Origin: an uncultured Pelagibacteraceae bacterium
Lineage (GTDB): Bacteria; Pseudomonadota; Alphaproteobacteria; Pelagibacterales; Pelagibacteraceae
Length of the DNA: 64,000 bases
Direction of reading: 5' to 3'
Assembly: GCA_902521805.1 (NCBI GenBank)
Contig: CABYTL010000002.1
Span: 1-64,000, forward strand
Shown: one piece after another, positions 39,806 to 42,468 of the stretch
How the letters are laid out: the number at the start of each line of letters is the position of its first letter
Position numbering within the stretch: the stretch's first letter is position 1
Made by a program: the position numbers and the translations under genes
The notes under the pieces: model-generated
The model's database searches: none
The model's input: the letters and a program-made list of their open reading frames with translations, nothing else
Told to the model about the DNA's origin: nothing

Positions 39806-41887
39806 ATGAAAATACCACAACTTAAAAAAAAACCAGAGTTTAAATCTTGTCACAATACGACGTGGGAAGATAATTATAGTTGGATCCATCAGGATAATAT
39901 TCTTGAAGTTTTAAAAGATAGTTCTAAGCTACTTCCAGATGTTAGGAAATATCTTGAAGAAGAAAACAATTTCACAGAACATAATTTAAAAGACACAAAA
40001 GAATATCAGAAAATCTTATTTGATGAAATTAAAGGTAGGATAAAGTTAGATGATGAGTCATTAAAATTTAAAGACAAAGAATATGAATATTGGACTAAAA
40101 CAACTTCAGTAGGAAATTATTCAATAAAACTTAGAAAGAAAATTGGAAGCGATAAAATTGAAGAATTTTGGAATGGCGATTTAGAAAAAGAGAAATTAAA
40201 AACTGAATATTTTGGTATAGGTGATTTAGAGGTAAGTTATAATGACAAACTTTTAGGTTATTCTTTAGATTTAAAAGGATCTGAATATTATACAATTTAC
40301 ATAAGAAATATTACCTCAGGAAAATTAGTCACTGAGAAAATAGAAGAAACAAGTGGAAGTATTGCTTTTAGTTTGGACGACCAATATTTTTTTTATTCAA
40401 AGCTTGATGAATTCCATAGACCAAGAAAAATATTTAGACACAAAATCGGATCATCAGTTAAAGACGATACGCTTATTTTTGAGGAGAAAAGTGAGGCATT
40501 TACCGTAGGTATAAATTTAAGTTCAGATGAAAAATTTTTTTTTATAACAACATCAGATCATAATACATCTGAGCAATACTATTTTGAGGTAACGGAAAAA
40601 AATCCAAAGCCAAAATTAATTAAAAAAAGAAAAAAGGGTGTAATTTATTCAGTCAATTCTTGGGGTGGATATTTTTATTGTCATACTAATGATGATGCAG
40701 AGGATTTCAAAATCGAAAGATGTGATGATTTATCAAATCAAAATTGGGAAATTTATATAGCTGCTAAAGATGAAGTTTTAATTGGAGGATTAATATTTTT
40801 AAATGATTGGATCATCAGAGGGGAAAAATCGAATGCATTGGGAAAATTATTTGTAAAAAATAAACAAACAGGAATTGAGGAAGAATTAAAGTTTACTGAT
40901 GAATCTGTGATTGTGCCTAGTGTTTCATTGATACAAAGAAATAAAAATACTGATTCAGTATACTTGTCATATTCATCTCCGAAAACACCAGGTAAAACTT
41001 ATTTATACAATTTAAAAACAAAAGAAAAAAAATTAGTAAAAGAACAAGAAATTCCATCTGGTCATAATCCAGATGACTATATAGTCGAAAGACTAGAGTG
41101 CCCTTCTCATGATGGAAGATTAGTTCCACTTACAATTACCAGACACAAAAAAACTAAAATCAATGGGTCAGCAAATTTACTTTTATATGGTTATGGATCA
41201 TATGGAAGTTCAATGACTCCAGATTTTTCCTCAATTAGATTAAGTTTAATTGACAGAGATATTATTTGGGTAACCGCACATATTAGAGGAGGAATGGAAA
41301 AAGGAATGAAATGGTGGAAAGAGGGAAAACTTCTTAATAAAAAAAATACATTTGAAGATTACATACACGTAGCAAAGTTTTTGATTGAAAAAGGATACTC
41401 ATCGAAAGGAAAAATTATTGGTATGGGTGGATCAGCTGGTGGTTTATTAATGGGAGCAGTAGTTAATCAATCCCCAGAATTATTTCTTGGAATTGTAATG
41501 GCTGTACCATTTGTTGACTCGTTAACAACTAACTTGGATCATTCTTTGCCCCTTACTGTTGGAGAATTTGATGAATTTGGTAATGCTAAAGATAATAAAG
41601 ATCACTTTGATTATATTCATTCTTATGCTCCATATAACAATATTAAAAAAATGGATTATCCTCACATATTAATTACTACAAGCTTAAGTGATAATAGAGT
41701 GCTATTCGATGAACCAGCAAAATTTACAGCTAAACTTAGAGATTTAAAAACTGATAACAACTTGCTTTTGTTAAAAACTGAAATGAATGCAGGCCACGGA
41801 GGTAAGTCTGGTAGAGATGGTGCCATTGAAGAAATAGCTTTTGACTACACATTTATTTTAAAGATCTCTGAAAAAATTAAAATTTAA
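39806..41887 (+). CDS. ptrB: Oligopeptidase B / prolyl oligopeptidase family (S9A)
   Basis: GYGSYGSSMTPDFS, AHIRGGMEKGMKWWKEGKLLNKKNTFEDYI, GMGGSAGGLLMGAVVNQ, catalytic H in NAGHGGKSG. Confidence 0.95.
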   Translation: MKIPQLKKKPEFKSCHNTTWEDNYSWIHQDNILEVLKDSSKLLPDVRKYLEEENNFTEHNLKDTKEYQKILFDEIKGRIKLDDESLKFKDKEYEYWTKTTSVGNYSIKLRKKIGSDKIEEFWNGDLEKEKLKTEYFGIGDLEVSYNDKLLGYSLDLKGSEYYTIYIRNITSGKLVTEKIEETSGSIAFSLDDQYFFYSKLDEFHRPRKIFRHKIGSSVKDDTLIFEEKSEAFTVGINLSSDEKFFFITTSDHNTSEQYYFEVTEKNPKPKLIKKRKKGVIYSVNSWGGYFYCHTNDDAEDFKIERCDDLSNQNWEIYIAAKDEVLIGGLIFLNDWIIRGEKSNALGKLFVKNKQTGIEEELKFTDESVIVPSVSLIQRNKNTDSVYLSYSSPKTPGKTYLYNLKTKEKKLVKEQEIPSGHNPDDYIVERLECPSHDGRLVPLTITRHKKTKINGSANLLLYGYGSYGSSMTPDFSSIRLSLIDRDIIWVTAHIRGGMEKGMKWWKEGKLLNKKNTFEDYIHVAKFLIEKGYSSKGKIIGMGGSAGGLLMGAVVNQSPELFLGIVMAVPFVDSLTTNLDHSLPLTVGEFDEFGNAKDNKDHFDYIHSYAPYNNIKKMDYPHILITTSLSDNRVLFDEPAKFTAKLRDLKTDNNLLLLKTEMNAGHGGKSGRDGAIEEIAFDYTFILKISEKIKI

Positions 41888-41890
41888 TAT

Positions 41891-41918
41891 CTTGAAAAAA
41901 ATAAAATAGTTCCCATAT
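41891..41918 (+). promoter_or_regulatory. Putative sigma32 (RpoH) promoter upstream of hsp20
   Basis: CTTGAAA (41891-41897), 14-nt spacer, CCCATAT (41912-41918); same spacing as the groES candidate. Confidence 0.8.
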
Positions 41919-41922
41919 AAAT

Positions 41923-41951
41923 ATTGTTGGTCGCCTAATGGGGCTAACAAT
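41923..41951 (+). ncRNA. 5'UTR hairpin I of hsp20 leader
   Basis: ATTGTTGGTCGCC-TAAT-GGGGCTAACAAT pairs along most of its length with G:U pairs and one internal G x G mismatch. Confidence 0.65.
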
Positions 41952-41959
41952 AAATAAAC

Positions 41960-41976
41960 TTGCTTAACAAAGGAGG
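41960..41976 (+). ncRNA. ROSE-type RNA thermometer hairpin masking the hsp20 Shine-Dalgarno
   Basis: TTGCTT (41960-41965) - AACA - AAGGAG (41970-41975): U:G, U-A, G x G, C-G, U-A, U-A, the signature pairing of ROSE elements; immediately before the ATG at 41982. Confidence 0.8.
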
Positions 41977-41981
41977 ATATT

Positions 41982-42428
41982 ATGACAAGTAAGGATTTAT
42001 CTATTTTTAACTCACTGAGACCTTTTTCAATTGGTTTTGACGATATGTTTGATCAGTTCGAAAATATGCTGGATAACGGTCATTTGACTATGCAGTCAAA
42101 CTACCCACCATACAACATCAGAAAAACAGATAAAGATAATTATGCAATTGAGGTTGCTTTAGCTGGATTTTCAAAAGATGATGTAGAGGTTGAATTTGAA
42201 GATAATTTATTAACTGTAAGAACTAAACAAGTTAATAAATTAGAGGATAATAACTCTAATGGAGAAATAATTCATAAAGGAATATCTCAAAGACAATTTG
42301 CTAGATCATTTACAATTGCAGATGATGTAAAAGTAGGTGATGCTCAGCTTAAAGACGGTCTTTTAACAATTTCTTGTGAAAGAATTATCCCAGAGCATAA
42401 AAAGAAAAAACTTATAAAAATAAAATAA
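41982..42428 (+). CDS. ibpA: Small heat shock protein Hsp20/IbpA family
   Basis: YPPYNIRKTDKDNYAIEVALAGFSKDDVEVEFEDNLLTV alpha-crystallin domain, FARSFTIADDVKV. Confidence 0.96.
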   Translation: MTSKDLSIFNSLRPFSIGFDDMFDQFENMLDNGHLTMQSNYPPYNIRKTDKDNYAIEVALAGFSKDDVEVEFEDNLLTVRTKQVNKLEDNNSNGEIIHKGISQRQFARSFTIADDVKVGDAQLKDGLLTISCERIIPEHKKKKLIKIK

Positions 42429-42437
42429 GCGAAAACC

Positions 42438-42468
42438 TTACTTGCGGAGATTATTTCTCCGCGAGTAA
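42438..42468. terminator. GC-rich hairpin between convergent hsp20 and lipoprotein gene
   Basis: TTACTTGCGGAGA-TTATT-TCTCCGCGAGTAA near-perfect inverted repeat just past both stop codons. Confidence 0.7.

Follow-up and report, generated by a model that had tools for sequence, protein, structure and literature searches.

The window, as we call the whole 64,000-nucleotide stretch of Pelagibacteraceae DNA analysed here, contains an hsp20 gene encoding an Hsp20/alpha-crystallin protein of 148 amino acids. The ATG of this gene, read directly from the sequence, lies at 41982, and hsp20 is the single Hsp20 gene found in the source genome, which is 83% complete. The prolyl oligopeptidase gene upstream ends at 41887, so the entire hsp20 control region is packed into 94 bases. 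On the downstream side, an inverted repeat, ACTTGCGGAGA-TTATT-TCTCCGCGAGT, at 42440-42466 separates hsp20 from a convergent lipoprotein-like gene and is probably a terminator common to both. The initial annotation had described the leader as a sigma32-type promoter followed by a ROSE-like RNA thermometer, and direct reading shows that the layout it gave is correct base for base, including the position of G 41962. The features of the locus are as follows.

41891 to 41897, + strand: -35 element CTTGAAA of sigma32 type, kept in 123 of 135 distinct SAR11 leaders
41912 to 41918, + strand: -10 element CCCATAT of sigma32 type, separated by 14 nt from the -35 element (spacing of 14 in 128 of 135 leaders)
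about 41922 to 41952, + strand: hairpin I, with G 41933 unpaired or mismatched and the core G-CC-UAAU-GG, defined by covariation and folding
41959 to 41965, + strand: anti-Shine-Dalgarno strand CUUGCUU, carrying the ROSE motif U(U/C)GCU with the conserved G at 41962
41970 to 41976, + strand: Shine-Dalgarno sequence AAGGAGG, pairing with 41959-41965 in hairpin II
41982 to 42428, + strand: hsp20 gene (PF00011, E 2e-17)
41987 to 41993, + strand: AAGUAAG within codons 2-5, a hypothetical alternative partner of the anti-Shine-Dalgarno strand (7 bp)

The sigma32-type promoter

We scored the promoter in 135 distinct scorable leaders, all from the same family as the source genome (Pelagibacteraceae). 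A perfect 14/14 match to CTTGAAA-CCCATAT is present in 56 of these, whereas shuffled controls never match at more than 11 of the 14 positions. Within the 1.02-Mb source genome the pattern CTTGAAA-N11-16-CCCATAT occurs once, and the reversed-pattern control not at all. The same genome carries a gene for an RpoH-family sigma factor (rpoH) that scores above the curated cut-off. The locus combines CTTGAAA and CCCATnT elements, at a spacing within the 12-15 nt range of sigma32 promoters, with the presence of RpoH, and both the conservation of the elements and the presence of rpoH bear out the promoter assignment of the initial annotation. The distance from the -10 element to the hairpin I stem is exactly 6 nt in 112 of the 135 leaders. 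Because this gap is near-constant, transcription is predicted to begin at the foot of hairpin I, an arrangement proposed in the initial annotation and supported, short of proof, by the constancy of the gap.

Two hairpins in the hsp20 leader

In a whole-leader alignment of SAR11 and phage sequences the 3' arm of hairpin I was out of place for many leaders, and we therefore counted pairs on fixed-register windows, with no fitting to structure. The outer pairs of hairpin I form in 85% of cases, compared with 66% when each 5' arm is matched with a 3' arm from another sequence (2000 swaps, none above 72%). Across 52 distinct SAR11 and phage sequences, 84% of hairpin I cells are paired, compared with 66.7% after shuffling (0 of 500 shuffles reach the observed value), and the covariation score is 0.524 as opposed to 0.228, both shuffle tests being inflated by the relatedness of the sequences. 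In the slide control, which preserves relatedness, moving the partner by 1-3 columns lowers the covariation to 0.06-0.19. The search for compensatory changes that the initial annotation had called for, run here on SAR11 and phage leaders, finds strong covariation in hairpin I, which provides the leader with at least one stable 5' hairpin, as in ROSE elements. The G-CC..GG core is constant in sequence while the remainder of the stem covaries. This constancy is partly imposed by the pattern used for extraction, and was rechecked by unbiased folding, which gives hairpin I one bulged G, in its 5' strand, in 121 of 133 SAR11 leaders; any such 5' bulge occurs in 11% of shuffled sequences, and the bulged base is G in 121 of 123 SAR11 cases. 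We rejected an intrinsic terminator as an identity for hairpin I, there being no T run after the stem.

In hairpin II the loop AACA joins CUUGCUU to AAGGAG (41970-41975), so that U(U/C)GCU faces the Shine-Dalgarno sequence in the 3'-most hairpin of the leader. The conserved order of the stem is C-G, U-A, U.G or C-G, the G, C-G and U-A. These core pairs are present in nearly all leaders, with changes between U.G and C-G, and because hairpin II varies so little, covariation lends it scant support. Of 253 hsp20 leaders, 239 contain U(U/C)GCU with GGA after it, all of the exceptions being viral. The motif is kept in 158/158 leaders of the same family and in the 19/19 usable leaders of the second family of the order, where UCGCU lies within a longer hsp20 leader. 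Loss of TTGCT in close relatives, which the initial annotation had named as evidence against its reading, was looked for and not seen, U(U/C)GCU being present in all SAR11 leaders examined. The leaders of the second SAR11 family (L245-L264) have extra stem-loops, with UAAUCGCUUAAGGAGGAUUA over the Shine-Dalgarno sequence and no linker between it and the anti-Shine-Dalgarno strand.

The pairing of hairpin II is imperfect, with G 41962 either opposed by another G or unpaired. We evaluated both registers, and for the source leader the energy model finds the G x G register more stable than the bulged-G register (-5.5 vs -2.8 kcal/mol at 20 C), so the register given in the initial annotation is the better fit to this sequence. 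Cyanophage leaders fit the bulged-G register. In cyanophages S-RSM4 and ACG-2014e, GUC-G-CUU/AAG-GAC replaces CUC-G-CUU/AAG-GAG, turning the outer pair from C-G to G-C, and this double change supports the bulged-G register there. The two registers have the same consequence. In a subset of viral leaders (L141, L145, L146, L156, L161, L165, L166, L169, L171 and L173), CUGUCU replaces U(U/C)GCU opposite AAGGAGG, which may be a different anti-Shine-Dalgarno solution.

A covariance model built from 23 SAR11 leaders only, R1, gives one strong match in the source genome (E 1.6e-20, next 0.18; the source sequence is within the training set). Candidate further ROSE copies in that genome were rejected, none giving an R1 match above noise. 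Within a sample of the order, R1 matches directly before hsp20 in the 90 hsp20-bearing genomes of the source family, and of four same-family genomes in which no hsp20 was detected, three give no match and one a weak match. A chance origin of the leader was rejected on the basis of the arm-swap test, the covariation, the R1 match and the single occurrence of the promoter pattern. No Rfam family reaches its threshold within the window, the ROSE families RF00435, RF01832 and RF02523 included. The Rfam check proposed in the initial annotation does place Rfam ROSE (RF00435) nearest, at 19.7 bits where the gathering score is 45; this score serves for detection and does not define the element biologically, and the E. 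coli control exceeds the Rfam ROSE threshold. Automatic annotation misses the SAR11 leader because it scores below these thresholds. The description of the leader as ROSE-like is upheld by the motif, the conserved G facing the Shine-Dalgarno sequence and the covariation of hairpin I, but not at the level of the Rfam cut-off.

Proposed thermal opening and the competing readings

We consider it very likely that the 94 nt preceding hsp20 form a compact heat switch acting at two levels, a sigma32 promoter and a two-hairpin RNA thermometer of ROSE type. Transcription from the sigma32 (RpoH) promoter would begin at the base of hairpin I, which, by analogy with proven ROSE elements (PMC3669281), would stay folded. 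Hairpin II would hide the Shine-Dalgarno sequence in the cell through pairing of AAGGAG(G) with CUUGCUU around the conserved mismatched or bulged G. Warming would then loosen hairpin II and allow ribosomes to start, as in characterised ROSE elements.

When the leader is folded alone, the energy model keeps the Shine-Dalgarno sequence mostly closed, its mean unpaired probability rising slightly between 5 and 45 C, from 0.16 to 0.28. When 45 coding bases are added, the anti-Shine-Dalgarno strand also pairs with the coding start, this alternative pairing is favoured at all temperatures, and the Shine-Dalgarno sequence is more open throughout. RNAfold-type folding at several temperatures, another check put forward in the initial annotation, therefore shows no clean thermal switch once the coding start is included. 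The predictions are ambiguous because CUUGCUU can pair with codons 3-5 as well. Nearest-neighbour folding depends on the length folded and places noncanonical pairs outside the model; because the results shift with the stretch folded, we do not take folding as proof of a thermometer, and the model neither proves nor excludes the opening of hairpin II on warming.

Codons 2-5 of hsp20 are ACA AGT AAG GAT (41985-41996), and the same codons are kept in relatives. The alternative pairing raises the idea of a two-state switch, in which CUUGCUU pairs either with the Shine-Dalgarno sequence (closed) or with AAGUAAG in codons 3-5 (open), with the balance moved by temperature or by ribosomes. The seven pairs, including one G.U, are stabler than hairpin II in the energy model, although such predictions vary with the length of sequence folded. 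Codons 2-5 are near-invariant at synonymous sites across 138 SAR11 genes, and codon 4 is AAG in 97% of these compared with 19% of lysine codons further along, but other 5' codons are well conserved too. Comparison with synonymous random starts divides the leaders: pairing between coding start and anti-Shine-Dalgarno strand is 0.55 vs 0.16 in pelagiphage-like leaders, yet 0.36 vs 0.29 in SAR11, a small excess inside the replicate range, and cyanophages show no excess. On this balance we regard a two-state switch as unlikely.

The absence of a clear switch from folding alone, together with the position of hairpin I at the predicted 5' end, would also suit a leader that merely stabilises the 5' end of the mRNA and supplies a strong ribosome site, with no sensing of temperature. 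Such a role leaves unexplained both the near-invariant U(U/C)GCU facing the Shine-Dalgarno sequence and the GUC/GAC double change in phages, and we judge it very improbable.

A further proposal is that the leader serves in the main to bind Hsp20, free Hsp20 blocking its own translation until aggregates titrate it away. The switch would then sense misfolded protein and not temperature directly, though the two modes are compatible. This mechanism has been shown in E. coli and other gammaproteobacteria, where IbpA requires Tyr34 and Arg93 both for binding its leader and for repressing it (PMC10474464). When aligned with IbpA of E. coli, the source Hsp20 carries residues equivalent to both. Among the aligned SAR11 and phage Hsp20s the Arg93 equivalent is conserved, with Lys only in Paride, and the Tyr34 equivalent is kept as Tyr or Phe. 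The retention of sequence in the G-CC..GG core of hairpin I, while other stem positions covary, points the same way. Set against this, the residues may be conserved for other reasons, and the constancy of the core is partly selected by the search pattern, although unbiased folding agrees (121/123). As the chief function of the leader we hold autorepression to be possible but on the doubtful side; the presence of the Tyr34 and Arg93 equivalents in SAR11 and almost all phage Hsp20s makes it plausible as a second layer of control.

SAR11 bacteria, which possess few regulators, rank with the most abundant cell types on the planet. If the leader responds to temperature in transcription as well as in translation, it would offer a testable account of their heat response.

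Phage leaders and known RNA thermometers

We gathered viral hsp20 genes, from pelagiphage-like contigs and isolates, by protein search of viral collections. Of 50 viral loci, R1, with its training set of SAR11 leaders only, detects 43 with E no higher than 1, directly before hsp20, and 33 with E below 0.01. Inspected by eye, the Kyanoviridae and Pelagibacter phage isolates in the sample, 22 of 22, place U(U/C)GCU opposite the Shine-Dalgarno sequence, preceded by a hairpin that in cyanophages often has a UUCG loop. Pseudomonas phage Paride has the variant motif UUGCG, and by eye nothing alike is present in the hsp20 leader of Vibrio phage PWH3a-P1. Sigma32-like -35 and -10 elements in the same geometry, with at least 10/14 matches, precede 32 of 60 distinct viral leaders, compared with 5 of 600 shuffles. 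Examples are the leader of HTVC008M (CTTGAAA-14-ATTATAT) and that of phage Mosig, with CCCATAT as its -10 element. In cyanophages a TAAATA box resembling a T4 late promoter often occupies the promoter position instead.

In three checked viral contigs the neighbouring genes belong to phage DNA helicase, sliding clamp, clamp loader and endolysin families, and these contigs are therefore viral and not stray bacterial ones. In a quick protein tree, which is provisional and has several long branches, the Hsp20s of Pelagibacteraceae and pelagiphage-like genomes intermingle, one viral pair clustering with three SAR11 genera (support 96), while cyanophage Hsp20s form one group (support 92). The intermingling suggests that hsp20 has been exchanged between SAR11 and phages, in either direction. 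T4-like cyanophages have hsp20 as one of their core genes (PMC3037559). We think it rather probable that marine T4-like phages regularly carry ROSE-type hsp20 leaders, as part of a cassette exchanged with SAR11 whose output would be temperature-gated. In the same reading the sigma32-like promoter accompanies the leader in many pelagiphage-like genomes, Arg93-dependent autorepression may operate, and phage Hsp20 could act on host hsp20 mRNA. If the phage leaders work, RNA thermometers, so far known from a few phage examples, would prove common among the dominant phages of the sea, and the dose of phage chaperone in an infection would be set directly by warming. The phage leader set is the part most worth following.

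Marine phage hsp20 leaders of ROSE type seem to be previously undescribed. A search of open-access full text, with most subscription papers outside it, turned up neither a phage ROSE element nor an RNA thermometer from a cyanophage. The phage thermometers of lambda cIII and SP-beta blyA, and a sigma70 leader, are likewise temperature-responsive phage leaders but are of other classes (conformational switch, fourU), none being a ROSE element and none controlling hsp20; as of 2024 the SP-beta blyA thermometer was reported as only the second in a phage (PMC11182007). For the host, structured RNAs of Ca. Pelagibacter ubique were searched for in 2009, in a paper whose main text makes no mention of heat-shock genes (PMC2704228).

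Among characterised bacterial elements, the E. coli ibpA leader (RF01832, ROSE_2) resembles the SAR11 form in having UCGCU facing AGGAG before a small heat-shock gene whose product is an autorepressing sHsp with Arg93, but it is longer, with more hairpins, and R1 finds no match in it. In the part of this leader that precedes the Rfam ROSE_2 match lies GGACGCGCCUGAUGGGUGUUC, which is able to fold into the same G-CC-N4-GG hairpin as in SAR11 and phages. Rhizobial ROSE elements (RF00435) share the G-CC-N4-GG core of hairpin I and the UUGCU/AGGA core; of their three to four hairpins, those in the middle are absent in Pelagibacteraceae. The short ROSE-like thermometers of Pseudomonas ibpA, for which RF02523 (ROSE_3) is the nearest Rfam model, are proven two-hairpin elements (PMC3669281), and the leader of cyanophage P-RSM6 aligns to ROSE_3 over its full length at 23.7 bits. 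In common with these, the SAR11 leader is about 60 nt long, precedes a small heat-shock gene, and has two hairpins, the first stable and the second predicted to hide the Shine-Dalgarno sequence with U(U/C)GCU. It differs in being AT-rich, in falling under the Rfam cut-off, and in having an anti-Shine-Dalgarno strand that may pair with codons 3-5. Judged by the sequence features that define them, the SAR11 leader belongs with the known short two-hairpin ROSE thermometers.
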